A stretch of DNA of 42,320 bases, taken from positions 1-42,320 of IMG/VR virus record IMGVR_UViG_3300006802_000017, one strand, 5' to 3'. Below the pieces are notes generated by a model, which searched no databases, was not told the origin of the DNA, and was given only the letters and a program-made list of their open reading frames with translations. This document shows, piece by piece, positions 30,393-41,815 of this stretch; positions within the stretch are counted from its first letter, which is position 1; each line of letters starts with the position of its first letter. This DNA is from a virus. The position numbers and the translations under genes are program-made.

Positions 30393-30716
30393 TCAGTCAT
30401 CCTGCTCTAAGCCAGTACACGTAAACGAAACATTGGCACTTCCAGCGTACACTCGTACCACATCGGCGCTGCCCAGCATCAAGGTGGCGGTAGCCAAGGA
30501 ATTGTTGGCACTAAGAACAGTGTCATAGGCCACGTACTGGGTATTGTCCGTCGAAGCACCGTTCACTCCAACCGATACCCGAACCGTCGTCTCCGTGGAC
30601 CGATTGGTGCAAATTACCTTGACAGTGGCATTTTTGCTGGCCGGGACCGTATACAGGTCGGCCTCAGTGGTCGCGTTAGGTGCGGCTTGCCCCAAAACAC
30701 CCTTGATGGTCGCCAT
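30393..30716 (-). CDS. small structural-type protein, common phage family
   Basis: A 107-aa protein of a type I recognise from many phages: MATIKGVLGQAAPNATTEADLYTVP at the start, then NRSTETTVRVSVGVNGA, YVAYDTVLSANNSL and the ending DVVRVYAGSANVSFTCTG. This reads as an all-beta fold of one sandwich. It is usually placed among virion genes and annotated hypothetical. The ATG directly follows the stop of the 47-aa gene with no gap, which suggests coupled translation. Exact function unknown. Confidence 0.85.
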   Translation of the reverse strand: MATIKGVLGQAAPNATTEADLYTVPASKNATVKVICTNRSTETTVRVSVGVNGASTDNTQYVAYDTVLSANNSLATATLMLGSADVVRVYAGSANVSFTCTGLEQDD

Positions 30717-30860
30717 CTACCACTCCGAGAAGTATATCAACGCCTCATGGTCAGCCGGGGACCAGTGCGTACGCTGCGCAGACGCATCAAAACCCGCAAT
30801 CCAGTTGTTGATGTACCGGGCTATCTGCCATAACGGCCAGCGCTCATTGACAATCGCCAT
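30717..30860 (-). CDS. 47-aa tryptophan-rich small protein
   Basis: A short gene, ATG 30860 to TAG 30717, with an excellent ribosome site (GAGGAGG, 5 nt before ATG). The protein has four tryptophans and begins MAIVNERWPLWQIARYINNW, continuing as an amphipathic helix, and ends ALIYFSEW. It is the second gene of the late operon and is followed without a gap by the 107-aa gene. I do not recognise a family. Its strong translation signal and coupling argue that it is real. Confidence 0.72.
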   Translation of the reverse strand: MAIVNERWPLWQIARYINNWIAGFDASAQRTHWSPADHEALIYFSEW

Positions 30861-31251
30861 CAGCGCCTCCTCTTACCCTTCTTGCAGCCCATTTCTTGGC
30901 TCCCAAAGTACTCGGCAACCCATTCTACGACTTTTTATTGCGCGGGGGTAACCCGATTTTGGTGTTTGTAGCGTGGGGGATTATGCCAAGGCGACTATTT
31001 GGAATATGGGACCCAGCGGGTTTTGCCTGAGCCCGAGCCCGAACACGAACCAGCCCGAGCCAGCTGGTACGCGCCTGCTCTCAAGTACTTGGGCGTTACC
31101 CGGTAACAGGTACGGGATGCCCGGCTGACCTGTTGCTGGTATACCCAACCACACTTCGCACTTCGCACCGCACTCCAACCTGATGCTGGGGTATAGGGTG
31201 CTATGGGATGTATTGATACAGGGGCTGTCAGGCTGTCTGGCAAGGGTGTTA
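30861..31251. other. 391-bp non-coding gap with short tandem repeats, possible packaging site
   Basis: No convincing gene is present between the 47-aa gene and the small terminase gene. Two repeat clusters stand out: a period-6 run of GAGCCC/GAAC words at about 31030-31064, and a 7-nt repeat (CACTTCG x2, then CACCG) at about 31152-31173. Repeats close to the small terminase gene are where pac or cos recognition sites are often found, but this is inference. A weak frame with a TTG start at 31277 (98 codons) has no good ribosome site. Confidence 0.4.
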
Positions 31252-31845
31252 TCAGGGTGTTTCCGCTTGCCCCTCAATCAACGCCCCGTGTTCCCGGTCA
31301 ATGTTCAGAACTACGGTAATGCCGCCGACCTGATGCTGACTGAAATCCTCAGCTTCGGGGCTGGCCTGTAACAGCCTGTCAGCTGCCTTCCAATCACGTG
31401 CCGCAGCGCTGTCAATGTGCGCTATCCATTCGGCTAGCTTGCCCGCTCTCGCCTGCCTCAATTGTTCCGCAAACTGAGGGTCACTTGCCTGCCATTGCTT
31501 GAGGGTTTTGGGGTTGATGCCCGCCGCTGTAGCAGCCAGCTTTATGGATGCACCACGGCCCACAAGGTCGAGAATAAATGCCACCCGCTCAGCGCTACAT
31601 TTAGTCGGCCCCGTAAGCATTTGCGCGCGCTTCACAATAGGCAATTCGGCGGCAACCGATAACACCCCGCTAGCATCCGCTTGCCACCCTTCCCGCTTGG
31701 CGCGCTTGGCTATTCCCTGCTTTGTCGGTCGCCCGCCGAGGTCGCGACTGATCGCATAAGGCGATTGCCCCGCCTCAAATTTCATTTGTACCAGCTGCCA
31801 ATCAATCGGACCCCTCATGCCCGGTATTTTACCACGTTGGAGCAA
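31252..31845 (-). CDS. terminase small subunit
   Basis: A 197-aa protein. The N-terminal part (IDWQLVQMKFEAGQSPYAISRDLGGRPTKQGIAKRAKREGW) is a helix-turn-helix used by small terminases for DNA recognition. A second helical segment follows, GINPKTLKQWQASDPQFAEQLRQARAGKLAEW. The next motif AAARDWKAADRLLQAS is typical of phage small terminases. The likely start is either MLQRGK at the given position or MRGPIDW ten codons later; no clear ribosome site decides between them. It is the first gene of the late operon, five genes away from the large subunit. Confidence 0.85.
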   Translation of the reverse strand: MLQRGKIPGMRGPIDWQLVQMKFEAGQSPYAISRDLGGRPTKQGIAKRAKREGWQADASGVLSVAAELPIVKRAQMLTGPTKCSAERVAFILDLVGRGASIKLAATAAGINPKTLKQWQASDPQFAEQLRQARAGKLAEWIAHIDSAAARDWKAADRLLQASPEAEDFSQHQVGGITVVLNIDREHGALIEGQAETP

Positions 31846-32075
31846 TCGACGCTAAAAGCTTGACAGGGGCTAAATTTAGCAGTCCGGTAAAAACCCGAAA
31901 TCGGCATTAGACTGATTCTAAGCACCCCGTGAGAGCGCCTCAGAGCGCTTCTAAGGCACGATCTTTTTTTGAATACCAAGGTTAAGGGTCGAAGTTGCGC
32001 ATTGTGACGGGCCCTGTGCGCCGTCTCAGGGCATGGTCCAAGGTGGTCAATATAAGGCCAAAATCAGCCAATTGC

Positions 32076-32089
32076 TGTGAAATTTCACA
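32076..32089. promoter_or_regulatory. 14-bp perfect palindrome TGTGAAATTTCACA
   Basis: A perfect palindrome about 40 bp upstream of the -35 of the plus-strand promoter. The arms GTGA/TCAC and the AATT centre are shared with 32312-32325, but the spacing differs by two bases. It could be an operator for a dimeric regulator; CRP itself would want six bases between arms. Confidence 0.5.
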
Positions 32090-32109
32090 AGGTATTTAGC
32101 CCCTGCTAT

Positions 32110-32142
32110 CACGTACTAACAAAGTAGTTGCACGTACTAGCA
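32110..32142. repeat. two direct repeats CACGTACTARCA, 21 bp apart
   Basis: CACGTACTAACA at 32110-32121 and CACGTACTAGCA at 32131-32142 are spaced exactly two helical turns apart. The second copy overlaps the -35 and spacer of the promoter at 32128-32156 and the first is immediately upstream. This is the arrangement expected of binding sites on one DNA face for an activator or repressor. Confidence 0.6.
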
Positions 32143-32156
32143 CAAGCTGATATATT
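32128..32156 (+). promoter_or_regulatory. sigma-70-like promoter for the MoxR/VWA module
   Basis: TTGCAC (32128-32133), a 17-base spacer, and TATATT (32151-32156). Both boxes are close to consensus and the spacing is optimal. Transcription would begin near 32163 and give a leader of about 300 nt before the zinc-ribbon gene. No other start-like element lies closer to the genes. Confidence 0.7.
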
Positions 32157-32310
32157 CGCGTAGTGGGCATGGGCTCACGGCGCAAGCCGGTACCGCGACT
32201 AGGCGCGGGTCGAAATTCCTAAGGGTCCGGTCGCCGACCTATACAGGCGTACCAGCTGACTCCGCTACAGCGATGTTCCGCTTGCCCCGTACCGGCGCGC
32301 ACCCTCGGCT

Positions 32311-32326
32311 TGTGACAATTGTCACC
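32311..32326. promoter_or_regulatory. CRP-like palindromic site TGTGACAATTGTCAC
   Basis: GTGACAATTGTCAC (32312-32325) is a perfect 14-bp palindrome. With the preceding T it fits TGTGA-N6-TCAC, the core of CRP/Vfr-type sites. It lies in the transcribed leader, 11 bp before the left inverted repeat. Binding there could act as a roadblock, or it may be an unrelated operator. Confidence 0.4.
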
Positions 32327-32336
32327 CGTATTGACG

Positions 32337-32362
32337 CAAAATAATCCATTGGAAACTCCCCG
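32337..32362. repeat. left 26-bp inverted repeat bounding the MoxR/VWA module
   Basis: This 26-bp segment (core CAAAATAATCCATTGGAAAC) matches 36265-36290 in inverted orientation at 25 of 26 positions. The single mismatch is the T at 32357. It contains the small palindrome TCCATTGGA. It separates the upstream control region from the structured leader of the zinc-ribbon gene. Similarity ends abruptly on both sides. Confidence 0.9.
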
Positions 32363-32364
32363 TG

Positions 32365-32460
32365 GTGCTAGCCGTAAGGCTAGCCGGTAATCGTCCGCTG
32401 TAGCGCTTCTGAGGCGCTATGGCGGGCCGTTACTGATAGGGCCTTATGCCCCCACGGGAG
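32365..32460 (+). promoter_or_regulatory. structured leader with CCACGGGAG ribosome site, zinc-ribbon gene
   Basis: Three hairpins can be drawn: GCTAGCC-GTAA-GGCTAGC (32367-32384), TAGCGC-7-GCGCTA (32401-32419) and GGGC-5-GCCC (32439-32451). They are followed immediately by CCACGGGAG (32452-32460), 7 nt before the ATG. The order hairpin, then CCACGGGAG, then start recurs before the next three genes. The element may control translation or RNA processing. Confidence 0.65.
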
Positions 32461-32467
32461 TATCGCT

Positions 32468-32662
32468 ATGCCAACACCAAAATATGATTATGACGCAAGG
32501 CTGAAACAAACAGCCGATTGCCCGCATTGTGGGCAGCATTTCGATCAATTTGCCCGCCTTAATTGGCTGGGGTATTTCAACGCAAAAGACCGTTATAGCT
32601 GTAGTGAGTGCGGCGGGCGTTTCACTATTTGTGAGACAACCGGCGTGATTCGCAAAGCCTAA
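32468..32662 (+). CDS. zinc-ribbon protein
   Basis: A 64-aa protein with two CxxC knuckles, CPHC (C18, C21) and CSEC (C45, C48), separated by 23 residues, the layout of a zinc ribbon. The sequence around them (CGQHFDQFARLNWLGYFNAKDRY; CGGRFTICETTG) is hydrophilic and lacks any other motif. It is the first gene of the module and could be a DNA-, RNA- or protein-binding adaptor for the AAA+ ATPase. CCACGGGAG lies 7 nt before the ATG. Confidence 0.75.
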   Translation: MPTPKYDYDARLKQTADCPHCGQHFDQFARLNWLGYFNAKDRYSCSECGGRFTICETTGVIRKA

Positions 32663-32728
32663 TCATTCCACGGCATAGGGTCCTATCAGTAGCGGCTAAT
32701 CGCTACAACTACCACGGGAGATATACCA
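32663..32728 (+). promoter_or_regulatory. short structured spacer with CCACGGGAG, before the MoxR-like gene
   Basis: A weak ATAG/CTAT stem (32675-32686) is followed by a clear GTAGCG-6-CGCTAC hairpin (32689-32706) and CCACGGGAG (32712-32720), 8 nt from ATG. The last hairpin corresponds in position and sequence to GTAGC...GCTAC of the next two spacers. This is the shortest of the set and lacks the strong first hairpin. Confidence 0.65.
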
Positions 32729-33808
32729 ATGTTACTCAACATACCTACAGTCAATACATCCGAAGCAATCGACCTAATCGTTGCCGCTTCAAAGGTCCGC
32801 AATATGGGGCATGATTCTAGCTTTACCGGCATGCCCGTATTGCTGCTCGGCGAAGCAGGTTGCGGGAAAACATACGCCCCAACCGCAGCAGCCAAAATAA
32901 CCGAGGCTCAGTTTGCCGAGGTCCCGGCTATGTCGCTGTCGCCGTCGGATGCAACAGGGTCCAAGGCGTTGCCGGTACACGGGCAGCACGATCCTGACTA
33001 CGTGGTCCAATTGTTCCCTGATTACGTCAAAAACCTTGACCGCAATAAACCAGCGATCATCGTATATGACGAAGGCACTAAACCGCCGCTTGCAACGCGC
33101 AATGCGTTGCTGCAAATATTTCACTCGCGGCGGGCCGGGCGCTTTGAATTAGGGCGCGATTGGATGCTGGTAATGACCGGCAATGTTGCAAGCGCCAAGG
33201 CGGGCGATACGGACAACCCTTCCCCGTTTAGGTCACGGGTTGCTACATTTATGGTCCGCAATTCCTGCCAGCAATGGTTGGATAACTTCGCGATACCGAA
33301 CAACTTGCACTACAGCGTGACCAGCTTCATTAAGCACCACGCTGGCAACCCGCAATTTGATAAGTATCACGCTGGTCCGCTTAGCACTTGGGACCCAACC
33401 GAAAACCCCGCAGCTTATGGTTGTGAACGTAGTTGGACGAATTTGGCGAATGTCGCTGATTCGGGCGTTGACCCCAAGCTATTGGCATCAGCAATGATTG
33501 GCAACGAATTGGGCAACCTTTATTGCCAACACCTCGACACGCTGGCTGAAATTACGGACTTCGACCTAATCAAGCGGGAACCGGCAACGGCACCCGTCCC
33601 TGATGACATTATGATTTGCCACTACATTGGCAATATGGTGGCATATTGGGCTGATCGGGCCAGCATGGATGCGATTGCAACATACCTCAGGCGCATGCCC
33701 GCCGAGTGTGCTGTGGTAGCGATGACCGAAATCGCTACACGGCACCCGGACTGCAAAGAAACCCGCGCCTATATTGATTTTAGGCTTGAATACAAGCTTA
33801 GCCTGTAA
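32729..33808 (+). CDS. MoxR/CobS-like AAA+ ATPase
   Basis: A 359-aa protein. Walker A is GEAGCGKT (residues 41-48). Walker B is IIVYDEGTK, followed by the MoxR-like stretch PPLATRNALLQIFHSRR. Sensor 1 is in VMTGN, and a possible arginine finger is in FRSRVATF. MoxR-type ATPases remodel partner proteins and are usually paired with a VWA-domain protein (RavA-ViaA, CbbQ-CbbO, NorQ-NorD, CobS-CobT); such a partner is encoded two genes downstream. The C-terminal 150 residues are helical with several histidine/cysteine positions and no recognised motif. The substrate in this phage is unknown. Confidence 0.85.
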   Translation: MLLNIPTVNTSEAIDLIVAASKVRNMGHDSSFTGMPVLLLGEAGCGKTYAPTAAAKITEAQFAEVPAMSLSPSDATGSKALPVHGQHDPDYVVQLFPDYVKNLDRNKPAIIVYDEGTKPPLATRNALLQIFHSRRAGRFELGRDWMLVMTGNVASAKAGDTDNPSPFRSRVATFMVRNSCQQWLDNFAIPNNLHYSVTSFIKHHAGNPQFDKYHAGPLSTWDPTENPAAYGCERSWTNLANVADSGVDPKLLASAMIGNELGNLYCQHLDTLAEITDFDLIKREPATAPVPDDIMICHYIGNMVAYWADRASMDAIATYLRRMPAECAVVAMTEIATRHPDCKETRAYIDFRLEYKLSL

Positions 33809-33905
33809 AGAGTAACGCCCCTGCAAAGGGGTGTTACCTGATGCCGCTGGTTATCCGGCGGCATTGGGTAGCGCCTTGCTACAAAAAACCACGGGAGATT
33901 AACCA
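33809..33905 (+). promoter_or_regulatory. three-hairpin spacer with CCACGGGAG, before the DUF3150-like gene
   Basis: Three consecutive hairpins: GTAACGCCCCT-GCAA-AGGGGTGTTAC (33812-33837, 11 bp with one G-U), ATGCCGCTGG-TTAT-CCGGCGGCAT (33841-33864, 10 bp) and GTAGC-5-GCTAC (33868-33882). Then come an A run and CCACGGGAG (33889-33897), 8 nt from ATG. The fold and much of the sequence are repeated at 34809-34903. No strong T run follows the first two hairpins, so they are not ordinary terminators. Confidence 0.8.
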
Positions 33906-34808
33906 ATGAACGCATTTATAAATTATGACGCACCCAGCGTCGCCGAAACGCACGTATTAGTTAAGCTAGAAGCAAGCTTTCCCCCGGCATCAAAGCAATC
34001 AGAAAAGGCAAAGGCAGCAATTGTCGCCGATATGGTTGCACAAGGTGCCGACCGGGAAACCGCCGAGGCTATGGCGAAAGGCTCAGGTGACCTTTTCCCC
34101 GACGGGGAATTGAAAGATATCAAGAGCCCCTATTACAGCTTCAATACGTTTTTGGAGCGGGTTTCTATTCGCTGGCTCGGCGGCAAAGGTGCGCCGCGCC
34201 TTGTTTCGGTTCATATGCTCGACAAAATCGAACAGCGCTTTACCGAGGCGCAGCTTGTAATGTTGCCGCTGATTGAGGCATTCAAGCGCGATTACGTGAA
34301 AACCTTGGACGCATTGGAAAACCGGACCGGCCATTATTTTGCCCGCTCCGATTACCCGACAGCCGAGGAAATCGACAGGAAATTCCGCTTCGATTTGACT
34401 TTCACGCCAATCGGCGACCCGCGACAGTTTGATATGGGCGCGGTATCGGAAACGCATAAGCGCCGAATGGTTGAAGCGCTAAATGAACAGGCGCAAGCAG
34501 TTACCAAAGAGTACGCCGAAAGCATTAGATCAGCGCTGCAACAGCTTAGCGCCCAATTAATTGGGGGCAAGGGTGCCGACGGCAAATATATTCGGTTTTC
34601 CGAATCCAATGTTAGCAACCTGTTGGAGTTGGTCGAGGCTAATCTGAACGCCTCAGGCGATCAGCAACTTGCTGAGGCATTGACCGACGTTAAGCGCGCC
34701 GCCGAATTGGCCGCTAATGCCGCTCGGTATAAGGACGATAAAGCGGTTAGAACCAGCGCCGCGAATGCCGCTAGCAGTGCGGCTAACAAATTGGCTGGCC
34801 TTTTCTAG
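33906..34808 (+). CDS. DUF3150-like protein of the MoxR/VWA module
   Basis: A 300-aa, mainly helical protein. The middle part has the pattern I associate with DUF3150 proteins: a long helix (LDKIEQRFTEAQLVMLPLIEAFKRDYVKTLDA), then YPTAEEIDRKFRFDLTFTPIGDPRQFDM, then another long helix (THKRRMVEALNEQAQAVTKEYAESI). The C-terminus is alanine-rich (AAELAANAARYKDDKAVRTSAANAASSAANKL). DUF3150 genes are often placed between CobS-like ATPases and CobT/VWA-like genes in phages; the molecular role is not known. It probably bridges the ATPase and the VWA protein. Confidence 0.7.
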   Translation: MNAFINYDAPSVAETHVLVKLEASFPPASKQSEKAKAAIVADMVAQGADRETAEAMAKGSGDLFPDGELKDIKSPYYSFNTFLERVSIRWLGGKGAPRLVSVHMLDKIEQRFTEAQLVMLPLIEAFKRDYVKTLDALENRTGHYFARSDYPTAEEIDRKFRFDLTFTPIGDPRQFDMGAVSETHKRRMVEALNEQAQAVTKEYAESIRSALQQLSAQLIGGKGADGKYIRFSESNVSNLLELVEANLNASGDQQLAEALTDVKRAAELAANAARYKDDKAVRTSAANAASSAANKLAGLF

Positions 34809-34903
34809 GCTTGTCAGTAACACCCTATCAGGGTGTTACCTAATGCGGCTCGATTTTGGGCCGTATTAGGTAGCAATCCTGCTACACCCACGGGAGAAAA
34901 CCA
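34809..34903 (+). promoter_or_regulatory. three-hairpin spacer with CCACGGGAG, before the VWA/peptidase gene
   Basis: Same architecture as 33809-33905: GTAACACCCT-ATC-AGGGTGTTAC (34817-34839, 10 bp), a CTAATGCGGC/GGCCGTATTAG stem (34840-34869, 10 bp, one G-U) and GTAGC-6-GCTAC (34870-34885). Then CCACGGGAG (34888-34896), 7 nt from ATG. Stretches such as AGGGTGTTACCT are shared with the previous spacer. Stems keep their pairing although several bases differ, which suggests that structure is maintained. Confidence 0.8.
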
Positions 34904-36256
34904 ATGGATGTTAATAAACTTATCATTGACCTTTTAGTTGTGCTGATTCAATCGCCGTATACCTTTGTTAAGGCTATGGGATTTCGGCTCGCTGCGATGA
35001 AGCGCGAAATTACCGAAACCCGCACTAAAACAATGGCCGTTGACGGGGTGACGTTATTTATAAACCCGCATTGGACCTCGGCGCAATCGAAGGTAAAGCT
35101 GTTATTCGTGCTGTTGCATGAGGCATGCCATGTATGGATGTTGCACCCTAAGCGCTTGCGGGACATATACCCCAGCCAGCGTGATATCGTGCATCAAGCC
35201 GCTGATTACGTGGTCAATCTAACGTTAGAACAGGCACGTTGCCCGTATCCTATGCCGGATGACGCGCTAATCAATCGCGACTACGTTGATGCTAATTGGA
35301 AATGCTTGAACGTTGAACGGGTTGTGCAATTGCTGTTGCAGCAACCGCCGGAACAGCCGGAACAGCCGGAACAACCGCAACCGCCCGAGGGTGCCGATAC
35401 GGACCCCGGCGACAGCGGGCAAGGCGGGCAACCTGATGACGAAACCGACAGCGAAACCGAAACCGGGAAAGATACCGGCGACGGTGACGAAAGCGGTGAC
35501 GAAAGCGGTGACGGCGACGGCGACGAACAGGGTACCAGCCAAACTAATGGCGGCAACGGTTCAACGCCTGAAAGCTGCGGAGAACTACTCCCCGCACCTG
35601 ATGATCTTGACGAACAGGAACACGTTAAGCGCAATGAACAGGCGTTACAGCTGGCTAGCAGCGGCGCGGGGTCAATGCCCGCGAATATGCTTGAGGAATT
35701 GCATCATCAGGCGCAAGGTAGCGCGACCGATTGGCTGACAGCGTTCAAAGATAGATTCGCAACCGCAGTTGACGCTAGCGATTGGAGTGAGGAGCGGTTT
35801 AACCAGCAATATGCCGCTATCGGCATGATTGAACCGACGTTATACACGGAATCAGTCGGAACCATTGCTATCGTGGTTGATGAATCTAGCTCAATGGATA
35901 ATGACCAGCTGAACCGCGCGACCGAACAGGTGGCCGCGATTGTTAGCGAATGGACTCCGCAGCGTGTCCTAATTATTCGCCATACGGCCATAATTGAGGA
36001 CATTCAAGAGCTATTCTACGGGCAACAGCCGGAACCACGTGAAAAGCGGGCCCACGGAGGCACCTATTTTCGACCGGTAATCGAAAAGCTTGAGGACGAA
36101 ATCATTGATGTAGCATGTTGGGTGACCGACTGCATGCCAATGGATTCGGTACCTGATGCAAGCTTTCCGATAATTTGGCTCGGTACCGGATACGGCGCTG
36201 AACGCTGTTATAACACGTACAACCTGCAAGGCGATTTCGTTAGCATTGACGAATAG
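34904..36256 (+). CDS. metallopeptidase/VWA-like protein (PF13203/DUF2201-type) with acidic linker
   Basis: A 450-aa protein in three parts. The N-terminal peptidase-like domain has the zinc motif LLHEACHVWMLHPKR (about residues 71-85; HExxH plus following H). The linker (about 148-230) starts with PEQ repeats and becomes an Asp/Glu/Gly/Ser-rich run. The C-terminal VWA-like domain keeps a MIDAS D-E-S-S-S (VVDESSSMD, about 323-331), the threonine in AHGGTYFRPVIE and WVTDCMP. An acidic linker between N-terminal and VWA domains also occurs in CobT. It is probably the substrate adaptor of the MoxR-like ATPase. Whether the peptidase is active is unknown. The stop lies 9 bp before the right inverted repeat. 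Confidence 0.85.
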   Translation: MDVNKLIIDLLVVLIQSPYTFVKAMGFRLAAMKREITETRTKTMAVDGVTLFINPHWTSAQSKVKLLFVLLHEACHVWMLHPKRLRDIYPSQRDIVHQAADYVVNLTLEQARCPYPMPDDALINRDYVDANWKCLNVERVVQLLLQQPPEQPEQPEQPQPPEGADTDPGDSGQGGQPDDETDSETETGKDTGDGDESGDESGDGDGDEQGTSQTNGGNGSTPESCGELLPAPDDLDEQEHVKRNEQALQLASSGAGSMPANMLEELHHQAQGSATDWLTAFKDRFATAVDASDWSEERFNQQYAAIGMIEPTLYTESVGTIAIVVDESSSMDNDQLNRATEQVAAIVSEWTPQRVLIIRHTAIIEDIQELFYGQQPEPREKRAHGGTYFRPVIEKLEDEIIDVACWVTDCMPMDSVPDASFPIIWLGTGYGAERCYNTYNLQGDFVSIDE

Positions 36257-36264
36257 CCAAGCTG

Positions 36265-36290
36265 CGGGGGGTTTCCAATGGATTATTTTG
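36265..36290. repeat. right 26-bp inverted repeat bounding the MoxR/VWA module
   Basis: Inverted copy of 32337-32362 with one mismatch in 26. It begins 9 bp after the VWA gene stop and overlaps the last codon and stop of the convergent resolvase-like gene (TAA at 36283-36285). No hairpin terminator is present between the convergent genes. No target-site duplication is evident outside either repeat. Confidence 0.9.
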
Positions 36291-36681
36291 GCAGGTCGCT
36301 GATTGACCGCTCAATGGATGCAACGGTGTCGCCAATATTTTGCGTATAGCGCATGAACGCCGCCAGCTGGACCGGGGTCATTTCGACCACGCAGCGCCAC
36401 GGCTCATTATTTTGGCGGTAAGCGACCACGGGGTACTCTCCCGAGCCATTAGCGCTGAGCCGAGCCTGTTTCAGCCAATCGTTGAGCCGCAACACCTCTT
36501 GGCGCTTGACCTCAATTTGGCACTGAGCCGCCGAGCCATCCGAGCCACCTTCTCGCGACTGAGCCAACTCCCTGCTGAGCCTGAGCCTTTCAGGCAAAAA
36601 TTTGTTCAGAATGGAAAAAAACTCGCGCTCTCCGCGAGCCCCTTTCTCTCGCCTTCCTTTATGTGATTTCGGTTTAGCCAC
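36283..36681 (-). CDS. Holliday-junction-resolvase-like PD-(D/E)XK nuclease
   Basis: A 132-aa protein with a basic start (MAKPKSHKGRREKGARGEREFFSI) containing the early glutamate of the family. Then comes REGGSDG and the metal-binding core QIEVKRQEVLRLNDW (E-x-K). This is the pattern of small phage and archaeal-type Hjc-like resolvases and related endonucleases. It would cut branched DNA before packaging. Translation begins at GTG 36681 with an AGGAG 8 nt upstream, and the gene overlaps the nuclease gene before it by 76 nt. The last codons lie in the right inverted repeat of the module. Confidence 0.78.
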   Translation of the reverse strand: MAKPKSHKGRREKGARGEREFFSILNKFLPERLRLSRELAQSREGGSDGSAAQCQIEVKRQEVLRLNDWLKQARLSANGSGEYPVVAYRQNNEPWRCVVEMTPVQLAAFMRYTQNIGDTVASIERSISDLPK

Positions 36682-36995
36682 CCGTTTATCTCCTCAAGCA
36701 GCTCGCGTTCCGAGCCAAACTCCCTTACAAACAACTTCTTCTCTCTAGCCATAGAAGGACCAAACACCGCCTTCATTTTACTCATCGTGATGTTCAGGTT
36801 TTCCCGCTCCCCGCGATGGTGCCAGATACATAGCGGTATGGTGTGATCGTGGCCGAGCCGATATCCCTCAACGATATGGTGGATTTCGACCGTACCCACA
36901 CTGAGCCCACGTTTTCTACAGGCCATGCAGCCATAAACCTTGAGCATATAGAACCGCTCGCGGTCAGTCTGACTTATAGGCTTGCATTTCGGCAC
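36606..36995 (-). CDS. Ref-family-like HNH nuclease
   Basis: A 129-aa protein with a CxxC (GCMACRKRG), then VEIHHIVEGYRLGHDHTIPLCIWHHRGE. This is the His-rich HNH core of phage P1 Ref-type recombination-enhancement nucleases (IHHI...R-x-G-H-x-H-TIPLC-x-x-HH). The two cysteines plus histidines probably bind zinc. Ref cuts within RecA-made D-loops; the present protein may act likewise with the host RecA. It starts at GTG 36995 with a GAGG 8 nt upstream, and overlaps the preceding gene by 32 nt and the resolvase-like gene by 76 nt. Confidence 0.85.
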   Translation of the reverse strand: MPKCKPISQTDRERFYMLKVYGCMACRKRGLSVGTVEIHHIVEGYRLGHDHTIPLCIWHHRGERENLNITMSKMKAVFGPSMAREKKLFVREFGSERELLEEINGWLNRNHIKEGERKGLAESASFFPF

Positions 36996-37305
36996 GTTTT
37001 GTTGCCTCCATCGACTGCCACAAACTACTTCCCTGCATCGCGATACGAAGGTGCCATCCTTCTTTCTCCGCTATTTCCGTGGCTTCGCGCAATCCCTCCA
37101 GAATTTCCAGATACTCAGGATGACAGCGAGCCTCGCGCTCCTGAGCATTCACTGTGTCAAAACCCTTGGCTGCATAATCCCGCATCAGCATCGCCAGCTT
37201 TGATTTGCGGTAGTGGTCAAGGTACACCATGTCGGCTTTCGCTTTGGCGTAGCGGTCGGCCTGCTGGCGTAGCTCGTTGAGCCTTACTTCCAATTCTTTG
37301 AACAC
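36964..37305 (-). CDS. helical early protein of unknown function
   Basis: A 113-aa protein, almost wholly helical with coiled-coil character at the N-terminus (LEVRLNELRQQADRYAKAKADM) and Ala/Glu-rich helices later (EGLREATEIAEKEGWHLRIAMQG). I know similar small proteins from phage recombination gene groups, without function. It begins at GTG 37305, two nt after the stop of the HTH gene. No strong ribosome site is visible (GGCG about 8 nt upstream), so coupling to the HTH gene is probable. Confidence 0.75.
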   Translation of the reverse strand: MFKELEVRLNELRQQADRYAKAKADMVYLDHYRKSKLAMLMRDYAAKGFDTVNAQEREARCHPEYLEILEGLREATEIAEKEGWHLRIAMQGSSLWQSMEATKRAEMQAYKSD

Positions 37306-37307
37306 AA

Positions 37308-37514
37308 TCAGTCGCCGTAAAGCCGACGCAATTCTTCGCGCCGCTCCACCAGCTTGGCGCGCAGGTAAATTTGCCGCGCCCTGTTGCCGCTAATGCCCCA
37401 CCGTTTGCCGATAGCAACGTAGGTTTCGCCAGCTTCCCTTGCCGCGACAATTAAAGGATTGCGGTATTTGCGCTTGCGCTGCCAATCCGATTGTTGCTGT
37501 GCTTTCGTTCCCAT
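37308..37514 (-). CDS. small HTH-domain DNA-binding protein
   Basis: A 68-aa protein. ATG 37514 is chosen because it begins the conserved-looking part and has GGCGG 4 nt upstream. A longer reading from 37586 would run through the hairpin at 37532-37557. Residues about 20-50 form a helix-turn-helix (IVAAREAGETYVAIGKRWGISGNRARQIYLRA), close to those of sigma-like and resolvase-like regulators. The C-terminus is basic (LVERREELRRLYG). A transcriptional regulator of early phage genes is likely. It starts about 10 nt after a terminator-like hairpin, which may attenuate its own expression. Confidence 0.75.
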   Translation of the reverse strand: MGTKAQQQSDWQRKRKYRNPLIVAAREAGETYVAIGKRWGISGNRARQIYLRAKLVERREELRRLYGD

Positions 37515-37524
37515 TTTTACCGCC

Positions 37525-37557
37525 AAAAAAAGGCCCCCAACAGTTACGAAGGGGGCC
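37525..37557 (-). terminator. rho-independent terminator or attenuator, minus strand
   Basis: GGCCCCC-12-GGGGGCC stem (37532-37538 with 37551-37557) followed on the minus strand by a run of seven T (37525-37531). It lies between the 78-aa gene and the HTH gene, so it would reduce reading into the recombination genes unless antiterminated. On the plus strand the same hairpin precedes a fifth CCACGGGAG at 37570. Confidence 0.75.
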
Positions 37558-37569
37558 AAGCTCTCAGTG

Positions 37570-37742
37570 CCACGGGAGAGTGCCACATGAAACGATTATT
37601 TACGGACACGATACCAGTTCCAGAGCATTCTCGCGACCCTGCTCCAAATCATCCTCTAGCAGCATGGTGCTACAGTCAAATTGCAGGTTCACCAAATCTC
37701 CACGATCCAGCCAGATATGGATTTTACCGTCTCGGGCCTTGA
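37570..37742 (+). other. fifth CCACGGGAG element with a doubtful 51-codon frame
   Basis: CCACGGGAG at 37570-37578 lies 8 nt before ATG 37587, exactly as in the MoxR module, after a strong hairpin. The frame runs 51 codons (MKRLFTDTIPVPEH...) to 37742 but lies antisense to a better supported minus-strand gene. It has a composition typical of a shadow frame. It may be a copied leader element without a gene, or a real overlapping gene; I favour the former. Confidence 0.3.
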
Positions 37743-37836
37743 TGTCAGCCAAATTATCGACAGCAACGGTTAACTTGAACCTGCGGTTTTCTTCCATCGG
37801 GAACCGCTCGACTGTTGCTCTCTTAATTTTCTTCAC
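37600..37836 (-). CDS. small early protein, unknown
   Basis: A 78-aa protein starting at GTG 37836, chosen because GGAG lies 6 nt upstream and the GTG overlaps the previous stop as GTGA. A basic N-terminus (MKKIKRATVERF) is followed by a beta-strand pattern (RFKLTVAVDNL; KIHIWLDRGDLVNLQF) and an acidic helix (LLEDDLEQGRENALELV). The first part (VDNLADIKARDGKIHIW) suggests a small beta-fold. No family recognised. It is followed by a strong terminator-like hairpin. Confidence 0.7.
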   Translation of the reverse strand: MKKIKRATVERFPMEENRRFKLTVAVDNLADIKARDGKIHIWLDRGDLVNLQFDCSTMLLEDDLEQGRENALELVSCP

Positions 37837-37994
37837 ATCACGCTCCGAACGACGAACAAGAATAAGGTCAGGCTCGTACATGCTAGGATAATAACAGAAA
37901 ACGCTAGCCAGCGAATAGTTTTTTCATAACGCTCAACTAATTGCTGGTAAGCAAGCATTCTGTTTTCCAATATAACGATTTCTTCAATGCTCAT
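37833..37994 (-). CDS. 53-aa membrane protein, first gene of early minus operon
   Basis: A short gene from ATG 37994 with an ACGGAG 6 nt upstream. The N-terminal half is an acidic/amphipathic helix (MSIEEIVILENRMLAYQQLVERYEKTI). The C-terminal half is one transmembrane span (WLAFSVIILACTSLTLFLFVV) with a two-residue tail. Such a small tail-anchored protein made early could block superinfection or alter the host membrane, but nothing specific is seen. A GC-rich hairpin (38011-38038) lies just upstream. Confidence 0.7.
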   Translation of the reverse strand: MSIEEIVILENRMLAYQQLVERYEKTIRWLAFSVIILACTSLTLFLFVVRSVM

Positions 37995-38010
37995 AAATCA
38001 CTCCGTAAAA

Positions 38011-38038
38011 GCCGGGCACTGGGCCCTCCCGCCCCGGC
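38011..38038 (-). terminator. hairpin before the 53-aa gene, weak terminator or leader structure
   Basis: GCCGGG/CCCGGC stem with a 16-nt loop, followed on the minus strand by TTTTA. It is in the leader of the minus transcript that starts near 38237, and just before the ribosome site of the first gene. It may be an attenuator. The T run is short and termination is uncertain. Confidence 0.4.
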
Positions 38039-38219
38039 CAATAAACTGGTCTTAATGGGTTGGGTGTCCCGCCGTTTCGCCCGACCTTTATCCTCGTCGT
38101 CAGGTGCTTGCTTGAGTTACGGTCAAGTGTAGGAATAACACCGACCGGTATTGCTTGGGAGACATTATTGGATTATTCTGGACAGGAAATCCGGTTCAGT
38201 CTCCAAACCTCACCGGTAG

Positions 38220-38246
38220 CGCCCCCGTCAGGGGGCGTTTTCTTTT
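38220..38246 (+). terminator. rho-independent terminator, plus strand
   Basis: CGCCCCC-GTCA-GGGGGCG (38220-38237) followed by TTTTCTTTT. It points right, although no plus-strand gene precedes it closely, so it may stop antisense reading from the MoxR/VWA module. Read on the minus strand, the same stem forms the very 5' end of the transcript from the promoter at 38244-38272 and could protect it. Confidence 0.75.
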
Positions 38247-38272
38247 ATACCGAAGTTGATCCAGCTTGGCAA
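38244..38272 (-). promoter_or_regulatory. sigma-70-like promoter of the minus early operon
   Basis: On the minus strand TTGCCA (38272-38267), a 17-base spacer, TATAAA (38249-38244). Both boxes are near consensus. Transcription would begin near 38237 and run through the 53-aa, 78-aa, HTH, 113-aa, Ref-like and resolvase-like genes. The -35 box lies inside a perfect 18-bp palindrome. Confidence 0.75.
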
Positions 38273-38285
38273 ACGCTCGTTTGCC
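38268..38285. promoter_or_regulatory. 18-bp palindrome GGCAAACG-CT-CGTTTGCC, probable operator
   Basis: Perfect inverted repeat with 8-bp arms and 2-bp centre. It overlaps five of the six bases of the -35 element of the minus promoter. A dimer bound here would block RNA polymerase. The small HTH protein encoded downstream (37308-37514) is one candidate for autoregulation; this is inference. Confidence 0.6.
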
Positions 38286-38288
38286 ACG

Positions 38289-38354
38289 CCCCCCCCTCAG
38301 GAAAGCGGAACCTACGGAACCTGCGGAACCGAGGGGGGGGGAATTATTTTTTTT
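38289..38354 (+). terminator. second plus-strand terminator-like hairpin with GGAACC repeats in its loop
   Basis: CCCCCCCCTC (38289-38298) pairs with GAGGGGGGGG (38331-38340) over a 32-nt loop, followed by AATTATTTTTTTT. The loop contains three tandem GGAACC words (9-nt period). With the hairpin at 38220-38246 it makes two consecutive terminators facing right, so plus-strand transcription is strongly stopped before the divergent early region. Confidence 0.6.
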
Positions 38355-38359
38355 CACCC

Positions 38360-38458
38360 CTATCCGGCTGCAATCCAAAGCATCAGAAACAGCCCTATAG
38401 CGCAAATAATGGCTGCAATACCATCAGCTACCATCTCGTCCTTTTCCCAATCCTTCAT
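38360..38458 (-). CDS. 32-aa membrane microprotein
   Basis: A tiny gene, ATG 38458 to TAG 38360. GGGAGG lies 6 nt before ATG, and the start is one base after the stop of the 76-aa zinc-finger gene. The protein is a short acidic N-terminus (MKDWEKDEMVADG) and one transmembrane helix (IAAIICAIGLFLMLWIAAG). No homologue is known to me. Translational coupling and the strong ribosome site support it. Confidence 0.6.
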   Translation of the reverse strand: MKDWEKDEMVADGIAAIICAIGLFLMLWIAAG

Positions 38459-38459
38459 T

Positions 38460-38690
38460 TCATGCCTCCCAATGTCTTGCTCTAACCCGATTACTGGCCC
38501 AATAGCCCTTGTCATTCAGCCGTAAACGCGGCCTTCTCTGTTTATCCAGCACACGGGCAGGGTCCATACACTTGCGCGCTGTAGGCTCGCCCGCAAGGTG
38601 CATAGAGAAAGTGTAATCGCTGGTGAAATACTGGCCACACCTCGGACACTTGCAGTATTTGCTGCCAAACGGCAGTTTTGGGTCGCTCAT
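38460..38690 (-). CDS. small zinc-finger early protein
   Basis: A 76-aa protein with CPRC (C15, C18), H31 and C41, spaced as in a small C2HC zinc finger of phage early proteins (CPRCGQYFTSDYTFSMHL, later KCMDP). The C-terminus is basic (KQRRPRLRLND). It probably binds nucleic acid or a host protein. It starts one base after the stop of the 62-aa gene and uses a GAGG-type site. Function unknown. Confidence 0.75.
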   Translation of the reverse strand: MSDPKLPFGSKYCKCPRCGQYFTSDYTFSMHLAGEPTARKCMDPARVLDKQRRPRLRLNDKGYWASNRVRARHWEA

Positions 38691-38691
38691 C

Positions 38692-38880
38692 TCATTGCCC
38701 CCTCAGGACCGACATCGCTGCCTCGGCCCCACGTTTGGTTCTGAAGTACCGGGACTCTCGGGTGTATGGCTGGCCCTGCTTGTCCTTAAAGCCAAAATAC
38801 CAGCCAGACGGACTTTTTAGCACGACCAGCTTGGTGCCGGGATGTTCCGCCCCGGACATTACGGTTTCACGTATCAGCAT
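38692..38880 (-). CDS. small basic early protein
   Basis: A 62-aa basic protein (SPSGWYFGFKDKQGQPYTRESRYFRTKRGAEAAMSVL) with a beta-hairpin-like middle and C-terminal helix. It is first in the leftward early group and has GGGAG 8 nt before ATG, part of an ACGGGAG word like that of the MoxR module. Its promoter overlaps the rightward early promoter. No family recognised; DNA mimic or binding roles are possible. Confidence 0.7.
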   Translation of the reverse strand: MLIRETVMSGAEHPGTKLVVLKSPSGWYFGFKDKQGQPYTRESRYFRTKRGAEAAMSVLRGQ

Positions 38881-38897
38881 CTAGTTTCTCCCGTATG

Positions 38898-38926
38898 TTG
38901 ACATGATGTATGACTGAGTATACTAT
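38898..38926 (+). promoter_or_regulatory. sigma-70 promoter, rightward early operon
   Basis: TTGACA (38898-38903, perfect -35), 17-base spacer, TACTAT (38921-38926). Transcription should begin near 38933 and run through all genes from 38961 across the genome join to 139. Its -10 overlaps the -10 of the leftward promoter. Confidence 0.85.
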
Positions 38927-38944
38927 CACTATTCCAAATGTCAA
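38917..38944 (-). promoter_or_regulatory. sigma-70 promoter, leftward early genes
   Basis: On the minus strand TTGACA (38944-38939, perfect -35), 16-base spacer, TATACT (38922-38917). It drives the 62-aa, 76-aa and 32-aa genes. The two promoters face each other and share bases 38917-38926, so RNA polymerase can occupy only one at a time. Confidence 0.82.
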
Positions 38945-38960
38945 TTAAGGGAGACATTCG

Positions 38961-39194
38961 ATGAAGGTCAAATCTGGAATACCAATACCCACTGGTAATG
39001 CCAAGCAAAAGTATCCATTCGATCAAATGAACGTAAGGGACTCAGTGGAGTTTGACAGCACAGAGTTATTTCAAAAGGCTCGCCGCGCTGCCCAAGCTTA
39101 TGGCCGGAACCATAACATGGTGTTTGTTGCCCGTAAGGGTGTGCAGGATGGCGAGTTTGTCGGCGAAGGCGGCACAATCTGGAGAAAAAGATGA
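38961..39194 (+). CDS. first gene of rightward early operon, unknown
   Basis: A 77-aa protein: a proline-rich start (IPIPTGNAKQKYPFDQM), a turn region (VRDSVEFDSTELFQKARRAAQAYGRNHNMVF) and a glycine-rich end (GEFVGEGGTIWRKR). I recognise this as a widespread small phage early protein of unknown function; the helix AQAYGRNH with flanking strands suggests a DNA-binding or DNA-mimic fold. GGGAG lies 8 nt before ATG. The stop overlaps the next ATG (ATGA). Confidence 0.78.
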   Translation: MKVKSGIPIPTGNAKQKYPFDQMNVRDSVEFDSTELFQKARRAAQAYGRNHNMVFVARKGVQDGEFVGEGGTIWRKR

Positions 39195-39691
39195 TGCAAG
39201 GAATAATTGAGCGCGCTCAGCGATCCAAGTCGGGCAAGAGTCTGCGTGTACTGGTAAACGGTCAGTGGTACTCGACCAATAATTGGGCCCTAGAACAATG
39301 TATTGGGCGCACCATCCAGTTTGAGGTGGGCACCTCTGAGTACATGGGTAGCACCGTTTTTTGGGCCAATGACGCTGAGTTGGTTACCGACGTTGCTGCC
39401 CCAGAGCCGCAACATCCGCAACATCCGCAACAGGGAGGGGGGCAACAAGTTAAAAGTTCTAGCCCACCCCCCAAACAGATGACTGCAAGCGTCGAAAACA
39501 TGGCATTTATGCCGTTCGTTTCAAACACCGTCGCACATGCCATTCAGGCTGGCGCAATCAAGAACCCCGAGGATATCTACGCTTGGGCTTACAAGGCGTT
39601 TAATACCGCAAAAAATCTCGTCGAAGGTAAGCAAGAGGTGGCTGTAACAGCTGTCGCTAGCGATGACTTTGACGATGATATTCCTTTCTGA
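39191..39691 (+). CDS. single-stranded DNA-binding protein-like, DDDIPF tail
   Basis: A 166-aa protein. The N-terminal half is beta-rich (SLRVLVNGQWYSTNN; GRTIQFEVGTSEYMGSTVFWANDAEL), consistent with an OB-fold. A glutamine/proline/glycine linker with PQH repeats follows, then a helical part, and the C-terminus ends SDDFDDDIPF. The end is almost identical to that of bacterial SSB, where it docks many replication and repair enzymes. It probably coats phage single strands and recruits host SSB partners. A GGAG lies 6 nt before ATG. Confidence 0.78.
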   Translation: MMQGIIERAQRSKSGKSLRVLVNGQWYSTNNWALEQCIGRTIQFEVGTSEYMGSTVFWANDAELVTDVAAPEPQHPQHPQQGGGQQVKSSSPPPKQMTASVENMAFMPFVSNTVAHAIQAGAIKNPEDIYAWAYKAFNTAKNLVEGKQEVAVTAVASDDFDDDIPF

Positions 39692-39692
39692 T

Positions 39693-39704
39693 AGTATTAA
39701 TACT
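39693..39704. promoter_or_regulatory. 12-bp palindrome AGTATTAATACT
   Basis: Perfect palindrome in the 46-bp gap between the SSB-like and winged-helix genes, the only sizeable gap in the rightward operon. It may be an operator for the following DNA-binding protein. No promoter with good spacing is visible. Confidence 0.4.
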
Positions 39705-39737
39705 GTTGGTAACCTTTCAACAATTTGGAGACAAACC

Positions 39738-40244
39738 GTGACAACACCACTCGCGCCTCGTCCGGGGCTTGGCAAAACCGGAATCACCCGCGTCATTTAT
39801 AACGTCATGCATGACCTCAAACACCCTGTTACAAGGGAAAAGCTTTGGGAGGAGATGCCAGCTTCTGTTCGCATCCCTCACGGCCTCAAGAAGTTCAAGA
39901 AGGCGCTTATTAACATGGCTTATCAGGGGTACGTCGTCCGTTGGGTATCACAATATGGAGATAAGAAGGGAAAACCCCTGTTTCGCATTGCTACCGCCGA
40001 GGAATTTTACGCTAAGCGGCTTAAAGTGAACGCTGCGCAGCAAAAAAGCAGGGCAAAAGCCAAAAAAGCGAAAAAGAAGGTGGTCAAGCCGGGCAATGGG
40101 TCACAGCGACCCCTTGCCTCACCGGAAAGCGGTAGCTGGAAAGAGCCCGTTCTTCAGCGTATCGACAAGCGGCTGGTTGTCCTGAAAACGCAGGTTTCCG
40201 AATTGGAGGCGCTGCGAGAGCTGTTCAGGGATACGCAGCTGTGA
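39738..40244 (+). CDS. winged-helix-like DNA-binding protein with lysine-rich linker
   Basis: A 168-aa protein. GTG 39738 is chosen because GGAG lies 7-8 nt upstream; the frame is open further left, into the SSB-like gene, without a ribosome site. Residues about 14-95 have a winged-helix pattern (ITRVIYNVMHDLKHPVTREKLWEEMP; FKKALINMAYQGYVVRW; KKGKPLFRIATAEE). A very basic linker (KSRAKAKKAKKKVVKPG) and a C-terminal coiled coil (LVVLKTQVSELEALRELF) follow. An origin- or operator-binding role is possible. It overlaps the next gene by 4 nt. Confidence 0.75.
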   Translation: MTTPLAPRPGLGKTGITRVIYNVMHDLKHPVTREKLWEEMPASVRIPHGLKKFKKALINMAYQGYVVRWVSQYGDKKGKPLFRIATAEEFYAKRLKVNAAQQKSRAKAKKAKKKVVKPGNGSQRPLASPESGSWKEPVLQRIDKRLVVLKTQVSELEALRELFRDTQL

Positions 40245-40540
40245 CCTTCTACAATACCAATAAGGAGGCCGGAGCAACGCTCCGGTCCTCCCGCAGGAAG
40301 GCTGCGAAACAGGAAAACCTTGTGCGTGACTGGTTTCAGGCCAATCAAATAGCCGCTACCCCGTCAGATGTTTGGCGCAGGGTATTTGACTGCAAGGTCC
40401 CATTAACATCGGTACGCCGCTGCATGTCTGACCTGACCAAACAAGAGGTGTTACGGAAAACCGACCTCACAGCTAAGGGAGTTTACGGAAAACCTGAGCA
40501 TTTTTGGGTGTACGCAGAGCAACAGGACTTATTCGCATGA
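40241..40540 (+). CDS. small winged-helix-like protein ending in a beta-clamp-binding motif
   Basis: A 99-aa protein. The middle section (NLVRDWFQANQIAATPSDVWRRVFDCKVPLTSVRRCMSDLTKQEVLRKTD) reads as a helix-turn-helix/winged helix, with the wing around AKGVYGKPEHFWVY. The C-terminus is EQQDLFA. Q-Q-D-L-F fits the bacterial sliding-clamp-binding pentapeptide QLxLF (consensus QL[SD]LF). A DNA-binding protein docking on the host clamp DnaN would be able to load or halt the replisome. Overlaps both neighbours (4 nt each). Confidence 0.75.
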   Translation: MTFYNTNKEAGATLRSSRRKAAKQENLVRDWFQANQIAATPSDVWRRVFDCKVPLTSVRRCMSDLTKQEVLRKTDLTAKGVYGKPEHFWVYAEQQDLFA

Positions 40541-40890
40541 AAGAAGATACCAAAAGAGACATGGACATAGCGCTACAAGCGCTGGACACCGCGATCCATA
40601 CGCTGGTCCTTACAACGGTCAAGAATTTCCAGTCTATGGAGCAGGAAAACCTGCTGGATGCAATTGAGGGTATGGCGAGCATTACTGCTGTACTTGAGGC
40701 CAACCACGCAAACCAGATTTGCGCCATAGTGGGGGCCCTGTTGGAGCATGAAAACGTCCCTCACTACATGATTGCCGACCAAATAACGGCATTCAAAGAG
40801 AGTTTTCAGGACACGTTGGATACGGCCTTGAGGGAAATGATCGGAAGGCACAACCTACCTGACATCATGGACAAGAGGGCTGTTCAATGA
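40537..40890 (+). CDS. helical early protein, unknown
   Basis: A 117-aa, all-helical acidic protein (MKEDTKRDMDIALQALDTAIHTLVLTTV; NLLDAIEGMASITAVLEANHA; ITAFKESFQDTLDTALREM). ATG 40537 overlaps the previous stop as ATGA, so it is chosen rather than an upstream start. No membrane span or catalytic pattern. It could be an adaptor of the neighbouring nuclease or clamp-binding proteins; this is a guess from operon position. Confidence 0.7.
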   Translation: MKEDTKRDMDIALQALDTAIHTLVLTTVKNFQSMEQENLLDAIEGMASITAVLEANHANQICAIVGALLEHENVPHYMIADQITAFKESFQDTLDTALREMIGRHNLPDIMDKRAVQ

Positions 40891-41645
40891 GGCATCAACT
40901 GTATGGCGGCGACATTGAGCTTGAGTTTGACGAAAAGAAGCACGTTTACACCGTTGATGGGGCCATTATCCCGTCTGTAACCGGTATTACCAAGATAATT
41001 GACAAAAGCGGCCCGCTCATGTGGTGGGCCGTGGGTCAATGCTTGGAGTACTGCGAAAGCAGGCTGGGTGGATACAAGGCCAAGTCCCGCGCCGACAAAA
41101 TCTGGCGCGACGAAATAGAAAAAAAACAGTTTCTTCACGACGCTCACCGGGCTCACTTGCGTACCAGCAAGAAAGCGGCTGACATCGGCACGTTGGTACA
41201 TGAATGGATTGACGATTTCCTGACCGGCAAACGGCTCAAGGATGATCTACCCAAAAACGTGGCGGCAAGGTCCTCGGTTGAGAGCTTCCTTGACTGGTTT
41301 GACGAGCATGTCGAGGAGGTTTATGACACAGAGTTCAAGGTTTATAGCCGCGAACACGGCTACGCTGGCACCGCAGATTTTGATGGCGTGATTGATGGCG
41401 AGCGGGCCTTGGTGGACTGGAAAACCAGCAAATCCATTTATCCCGAGTATGAAATTCAGGGTAACGCCTATATTTTGGCCCGAGAGGAAGAATTGAGCGT
41501 AACGTATGACGCGCTGTATATCATTGCGCTGCCCAAGGATGGTGGGAAGGTCAAGGTTAAGCGATATGAGCCAAGTCAGAGAGCGCAGGACGGGTTTTTG
41601 GGTGCCCTAGCACTCTGGCGTTCACTAAAGGAGAAAGCGAAATGA
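40887..41645 (+). CDS. RecB/Cas4-type PD-(D/E)XK exonuclease
   Basis: A 252-aa protein. An N-terminal beta part (DEKKHVYTVDGAIIPSVTGI) is typical of phage PD-(D/E)XK nucleases. Then come GTLVHEWIDDFL (H and E of the first motif) and the core GYAGTADFDGVIDGERALVDWKTSKSIYPEYEIQGNAYIL, containing the D...DWK catalytic signature and the QxxxY motif (QGNAY). This is the PF12705/RecB-like family seen in many phages. It probably trims DNA ends during recombination-dependent replication together with the SSB-like protein. The start overlaps the previous stop. Confidence 0.88.
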   Translation: MRHQLYGGDIELEFDEKKHVYTVDGAIIPSVTGITKIIDKSGPLMWWAVGQCLEYCESRLGGYKAKSRADKIWRDEIEKKQFLHDAHRAHLRTSKKAADIGTLVHEWIDDFLTGKRLKDDLPKNVAARSSVESFLDWFDEHVEEVYDTEFKVYSREHGYAGTADFDGVIDGERALVDWKTSKSIYPEYEIQGNAYILAREEELSVTYDALYIIALPKDGGKVKVKRYEPSQRAQDGFLGALALWRSLKEKAK

Positions 41646-41815
41646 TGGCTCGACGGCATCTGGATTATACCAGCCTTACAGCCAGCTTATTGGCTCTATT
41701 GTTCTTTCTGACTGTTCCCACCGTGTTGGTCGCCATTGCGCACGATAAGTTGAGGTCAGAGCCAATCCAGATGTGCGTGTCGCCCACTGGACATAAGAAG
41801 GTGCCGTGTGAGTGA
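41642..41815 (+). CDS. 57-aa membrane protein
   Basis: A short gene starting in the nuclease stop region: ATG at 41642 directly followed by a second ATG at 41645. One strong transmembrane helix (SLTASLLALLFFLTVPTVLVAIA, about residues 11-33), then a short polar tail with two cysteines (QMCVSPTGHKKVPCE). An exported tail with two cysteines suggests an envelope-localised early protein, possibly for superinfection exclusion. No family recognised. Confidence 0.65.
   Translation: MMARRHLDYTSLTASLLALLFFLTVPTVLVAIAHDKLRSEPIQMCVSPTGHKKVPCE

Follow-up and report, generated by a model that had tools for sequence, protein, structure and literature searches.

We analyzed a module of four genes enclosed by an inverted repeat in a 42-kb virus sequence, the whole of IMG/VR record IMGVR_UViG_3300006802_000017 (42,320 nucleotides; this whole stretch is called the window below). 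The minus-strand structural genes of the virus extend up to the gene of the small terminase (TerS), and the module lies beyond it. After TerS follow about 490 bp of non-coding DNA, the left arm of the repeat, four plus-strand genes and the right arm. The genes were found to encode a weak zinc ribbon protein (gene 1), a MoxR-like AAA+ ATPase (gene 2), a protein without a reliable family (gene 3) and a DUF2201 metallopeptidase/VWA protein (gene 4). An earlier note, made from the sequence alone, had labeled them in broadly the same way, except that gene 3 was called DUF3150-like, for which no Pfam match was obtained even at E values up to 10. The same pair of a MoxR-type ATPase and a DUF2201 metallopeptidase/VWA protein in one operon is present in N4-like phages (gp24/gp25), and both families of the window are annotated as N4 gp24/gp25-like in JWAlpha. 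The N4-like operons have their genes tightly spaced and lack the RNA elements described below, whereas the operon of the window has gene 1 and gene 3 in addition.

The inverted repeat as a helix

The repeat has two arms, 32337-32362 and 36265-36290, which complement each other at all but one position (25 of 26). The 26-bp word, with up to 3 mismatches, was found only at these two sites in the window and in none of 100 dinucleotide shuffles, which bears out the repeat as the earlier note had described it. Every ungapped helix in the window was scored with G-U pairs allowed, and the helix of the two arms, 30 bp long with wobbles (P1), ranked first. The helices ranking second to fourth also fell in the module: cross-pairing between the gap elements described below, a 26-bp helix around gene 1 (P2) and a gap hairpin. 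The earlier note had pointed to the outermost of these structures only.

The arms flank the first and the last gene of a run on one strand, with the right arm beginning 9 bp past the VWA stop codon (36256), and to this extent they enclose the four genes as proposed. As a module border the repeat fared less well, because a convergent gene on the minus strand has its stop codon within the right arm, which is therefore not a clean segment border. No terminator-like site (a G+C-rich local hairpin with a U run behind it) was seen at either arm. Among viral contigs the 17-base core of the repeat occurred in four, and it was tied to the module only in L003, which is the same phage (99.98% identical). 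The repeat is therefore not a common terminator word, which the earlier note had named as a concern. The three other contigs had the core alone, in unrelated sequence, and were rejected as relatives.

Conservation of the RNA structures in close relatives

L005 and L006 have diverged from the window, with amino acid identities of 65% for MoxR, 80% for TerS and 86% for TerL (L005), and the module proteins of L006 were 65-67% identical to those of the window. The L005 contig stops within the VWA gene. L006 is syntenic with the window on both flanks of the module. It has both arms at matching places and in the same orientation, with changed sequence (left CTATATAGTCCATTGGTAACTCCCCG, right ACCTATAGCCCATTAGTAACTCCCCG), and the arms still match each other. 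The right arm of L006 lies about 8 bp past the VWA stop codon and again overlaps the stop codon of the neighboring gene, and its gene 1 is an unrelated open reading frame of 72 amino acids in place of the 64-amino-acid gene 1 of the window. The module had the same orientation in the window, in L003 (left junction only) and in L006. L005 and L006 were about 99.9% identical to each other apart from one recombinant-looking tract (L006 8010-8136, L005 11098-11224). This tract covers the end of gene 3 and a gap element, in which the pairing was kept and a GCAA loop was changed to GUAA. A TerS search gave no additional relatives, and none were found in two scans of genome contigs. Two viral contigs beyond L005 and L006 that contained CCATTRGTAACTCCCCG proved to be unrelated.

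P1 and P2 were compared pair by pair between the window and L006. In P1, 17 pairs were unchanged, 4 had changed on both sides, 4 on one side and 3 were broken, the breaks being confined to columns 1, 3 and 28 of 28. P2 (26 bp) had 16 unchanged, 5 double-changed and 5 single-changed pairs and no broken ones, bringing both helices together to 9 double-changed and 9 single-changed pairs. Read on the plus strand, the non-Watson-Crick pairs inside P1 and P2 were 14 G-U and 0 A-C. Since a constraint at the DNA level would not favor such a bias, P1 and P2 behave as RNA helices rather than as DNA sites. Like the arms of a leader-trailer helix, those of P1 flank their cargo and stay complementary through compensating changes, in this case in two lineages only. 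The sequence comparison gives good support to P1 as a conserved plus-strand RNA helix between the 5' leader and the 3' end of the operon messenger RNA (mRNA). P2 encloses gene 1 at the same position in L006, although gene 1 is unrelated there. N4-type hairpin promoters, which are hairpins of template-strand DNA, were rejected as an explanation because the wobble pairs favor the plus strand.

Past the left arm the leader folds strongly (z of -6.7 and -5.0). The 3' part of the P1 5' arm, CUCCCCGUGG (32356-32365), has an alternative pairing with the ribosome-binding site of gene 1 (RBS1). In the leader consensus the arm segment CUCCCCGUG(G/A) pairs with (C/U)CACGGGAG of RBS1, one double change included. 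As it pairs with RBS1 and also with the far 3' arm, this segment has two partners.

Both later gene gaps hold a gap element of three abutting hairpins, which starts 3-8 nucleotides past the stop codon of the preceding gene. The layout is H1 (10-11 bp, mostly with a GNRA loop), H2 (13 bp, with a loop of 4-5 nucleotides) and H3 (GUAGC...GCUAC), followed by the ribosome-binding site (RBS) CCACGGGAG. The elements fold with z of -5.5 to -8.1. In an alignment of five distinct copies 143 of 143 cells were paired and 11 pairs were double-changed, a result that was not approached by any of 500 shuffles or by any slid register. A strict detector of triple hairpins gave 2 triples for the window; 40 shuffled windows gave none. 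Strand b at the end of H1 and strand c at the start of H3 are complementary, as are strands a and d, so that an element can be either three hairpins or a junction with an outer stem. The second form was paired in 98.6% of cells, and for 9 of the 13 elements its energy was at most 1.1 kcal from that of the first form. By this comparison, conserved gap elements with two forms are well supported in the later gene gaps. Upstream of MoxR the strand order is GTTAC-P2-gene 1-P2'-GTAGC, which suggests that P2 is the H2 of a MoxR element that carries gene 1 in its loop. An integron attC-like or a hammerhead reading of the gap elements was rejected, as they have no conserved core sequence. An Rfam search of 30500-42320 at E values up to 5 gave no match of note for the elements or the leader, and no gathering match was found in the window.

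Table 1. Genes and RNA features of the module, in window coordinates
Feature	Position	Strand	Remarks
P1 5' arm	32337..32366	+	26 bp core 32337-32362, 30 bp with wobbles
Leader hairpin GCUAGCC-GUAA-GGCUAGC, GNRA loop	32367..32384	+	two double changes in L006
Long leader hairpin, H1-like part of MoxR element	32385..32435	+	
P2 5' arm (helix around gene 1)	32425..32450	+	
RBS1 CCACGGGAG, complementary to P1 5' arm	32452..32460	+	
Gene 1, weak zinc ribbon protein, 64 amino acids	32468..32662	+	PF17283 below its cut-off, plus phrog_6504
P2 3' arm	32672..32697	+	
H3 hairpin GUAGC-GGCUAAUC-GCUAC, before MoxR RBS	32689..32706	+	
Gene 2, MoxR-like AAA+ ATPase, 359 amino acids	32729..33808	+	phrog_1297
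Gap element MoxR-gene 3: H1 11 bp (GCAA loop), H2 13 bp, H3 5 bp, abutting	33812..33882	+	
Gene 3, 300 amino acids, without reliable family	33906..34808	+	
Gap element gene 3-VWA: H1 10 bp, H2 13 bp, H3 5-6 bp, abutting	34817..34885	+	
Gene 4, DUF2201 metallopeptidase/VWA protein, 450 amino acids	34904..36256	+	DUF2201_N plus DUF2201 VWA domain
P1 3' arm	36261..36290	+	26 bp core 36265-36290
Convergent PDDEXK/RusA-like gene (weak)	36283..36681	-	stop codon within P1 3' arm, likewise in L006

The module in distant phages

L040 and L041 (the same contigs as L042 and L043) have the genes in the same succession, gene 1-MoxR-gene 3-VWA, and the gaps between them measure about 100 nucleotides. Compared with the lineage of the window, their VWA proteins were 27-29% identical over the alignment and MoxR about 23%, and the gene 3 counterpart aligned weakly. 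Their gaps hold the same three hairpins in wholly different sequence, with the four strands still mutually complementary. The distant elements were misaligned by MAFFT, and the strands were assigned by hand for a count over 11 elements. This gave 268 Watson-Crick, 46 G-U and 3 A-C pairs, with b:c paired at 55 of 55 and a:d at 53 of 55 positions.

At other loci the strict detector found triples in the module gaps of L003, L005, L006, L040 and L041, and one further weak, chance-like match in L034. A relaxed detector added one element in the cyanophage Pag-Yong1, 3 nucleotides past a stop codon and upstream of its MoxR gene. No element was found by it in seven IMG/VR contigs whose VWA is 43-50% identical (L044-L050; in L044 genes 3 and 4 are 11 nucleotides apart) or in the module regions of SBP1, CRP-7, phiFa, JWAlpha, PT15-A5, G17 and Pa_WF01. 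The pattern GTAGC..GCTAC..CACGGGAG was present in 26 contigs, which is roughly the chance expectation, and yielded no convincing element outside the known relatives. The earlier note had held that its unit would be in doubt if related genomes carried the genes without the repeats. This is the case in the distant L040, L041, L044 and the Schitoviridae, but L006, the nearest relative with the full module, keeps the repeats.

A type II hammerhead ribozyme (RF02276) was found on the plus strand just past the VWA gene in L040 (9261-9318) and L041 (11384-11442). We take this end of the module as an independent sign of transcript processing. Hammerhead ribozymes have been described in phage gene gaps (PMC3088659). 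The gap elements of the window are not hammerheads, and the Rfam search gave no type II hammerhead in the window.

Repeated gap structures of another set are present in a cultured phage. Planktothrix phage Pag-Yong1 has many gene gaps of about 90 nucleotides (e.g. 878-967, 1316-1406 and 1689-1776) with a common hairpin TGACCCTCGCG...GGCGATGGCCAGC and GGTTCAGNCTGAACC palindromes.

A possible closed operon mRNA and its alternatives

We consider it fairly probable that the two arms of the inverted repeat form a single RNA helix between the beginning and the end of the operon mRNA, which would thereby be closed at its ends, processed or protected, and under translational control. P1 would close the finished mRNA into a loop, like the leader-trailer helix of ribosomal RNA (rRNA). 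The closed loop could have defined and protected ends, or it could offer a double-stranded site that an enzyme such as RNase III would cut. P1 would also capture the leader segment that otherwise masks RBS1, and because P1 takes up this segment gene 1 would be translated freely from the complete mRNA only. The gap elements are predicted to separate neighboring cistrons. As they start so close to the stop codon of the preceding gene, the ribosome terminating there could switch their state. The earlier note had listed paired processing or termination signals as one possibility; the direction of processing seems right, with one RNA helix instead of two separate signals.

Several points weigh against this reading. 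P1 and P2 are seen in only two lineages, as L005 and L006 are nearly identical, and P1 was not found in L040 and L041. In the two gap elements of the window itself, the first form is favored over the second by 4-5 kcal. That a helix would form across 3.9 kb of an mRNA under translation is a plausible prediction, and the effects of RNase III and of ribosomes are our inference. The same holds for the function of these structures as a whole, that is, their formation in the cell, the protection or processing of the ends, the release of RBS1 and a gap state set by ribosomes, which we read from sequence.

Complementary ends of a long RNA close the precursor in rRNA leader-trailer helices, and RNase III is the known cutter (PMC10250234). 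P1 is alike in closing the ends, but it would do so for a four-gene phage mRNA, and its cutting is predicted. End pairing similar to that of P1 is also present in the hok mRNA, a short toxin mRNA with an antisense RNA in which the paired 5' and 3' ends control translation; the module of the window has no toxin features. The gap elements share the strand logic of trp-type attenuators, in which strands a, b, c and d pair as a:b and c:d or as b:c (and a:d) and a ribosome near strand a could choose. They differ in having no terminator U-run after c:d, in being intergenic and in being repeated.

In icaR mRNA of Staphylococcus aureus the 3' end pairs with its own 5' leader near the RBS via a C-rich motif, which leads to cutting by RNase III (PMC3868564). 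P1 has a similar C-run and is long enough for RNase III, and it might be a pure repression device of this kind, in which the 3'-5' pairing lowers translation, RNase III cuts and the operon limits itself. We regard this as unlikely. A motif of the 3' untranslated region pairs with the RBS itself in the icaR type, whereas the C-run of P1 sits in the 5' leader and the 3' arm pairs there with the anti-RBS segment, so that P1 would be expected to free RBS1 and not to block it. Moreover, icaR has a single gene and a short pairing, as compared to 26-30 bp around four genes. The gap elements could also act on transcription, with P1 as a side product or an end mark. The put antitermination RNAs of phage HK022 are likewise abutting stem-loops in phage transcripts, and they keep RNA polymerase going. 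This seems improbable here, as the elements occur in several copies per operon with almost no sequence conservation between lineages and without an Rfam match.

If instead the repeats were protein-binding DNA sites, such as operators or promoters, a common regulator would hold the two copies identical. An AT-rich part adjoins the arms and a 14-bp palindrome lies upstream of the left arm (32312-32325), which would suit such sites. We find this quite improbable, since the copies of L006 have changed together relative to the window with differences of the wobble type on one strand only, no other copies are present in the window and a promoter scan gave nothing above shuffles. The mobile cassette and the invertible segment that the earlier note had proposed would likewise make the repeats DNA sites. 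A discrete block of genes lies between almost perfect inverted copies, and the gene 1 content differs between phages. Both points fit this view, which we nevertheless hold to be very improbable. The two flanks are syntenic in L006, where the arms occupy matching places; a reading of the flanks showed no target duplication, and the right arm lies over the stop codon of the neighboring gene in both phages. The orientation of the module was the same everywhere, and the arms change by compensation of the RNA type with the G-U bias on the plus strand. No recombinase domain (integrase or resolvase) was found in the record, in a search that did not go through the transposase families individually.

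Long helices that close the 5' end of an RNA on its 3' end are well known in the precursors of rRNA and in a small number of regulatory mRNAs. A closing helix around a four-gene phage operon, combined with a nested helix around a swappable gene and with two-form gap junctions would, if true, be a new design of a polycistronic message. The set of conserved RNA folds around the module genes seems not to have been described before. We tentatively suggest, as a possibility, that a new class of repeated RNA elements, defined by fixed helix lengths and four re-pairing strands and not by sequence, acts with an mRNA-closing helix and a hairpin-loop slot for exchangeable genes in controlling the cistrons of a phage AAA+/VWA operon. 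As the elements are defined by structure and have little conserved sequence, sequence searches will have missed them. The MoxR/VWA module is present in many phages and no established function was found for it; the RNA architecture, retained around it even by very distant phages, offers a way to approach its expression and timing.

The surroundings of the module also gave some minor observations. The non-coding DNA before the left arm (31850-32336) is partly conserved in the relatives. It contains highly conserved words (GACTCCGCYAMAGCGATGTTCCGCTTGCC), may be structured and could hold a packaging site, a promoter or further leader RNA. The palindrome GTGACAATTGTCAC within it is perfect and operator-like, lies shortly upstream of the left arm and was not seen in L006. 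On the other side, the PDDEXK/RusA-like resolvase gene adjoins a gene for a Ref-like RecA-dependent HNH nuclease (together 36283-36995, minus strand), both being convergent with the module. Further away, between the terminase and other head-region genes, a minus-strand gene (25947-27548) encodes a protein of 533 amino acids with a weak match to ART-PolyVal, an ADP-ribosyltransferase in polyvalent proteins.

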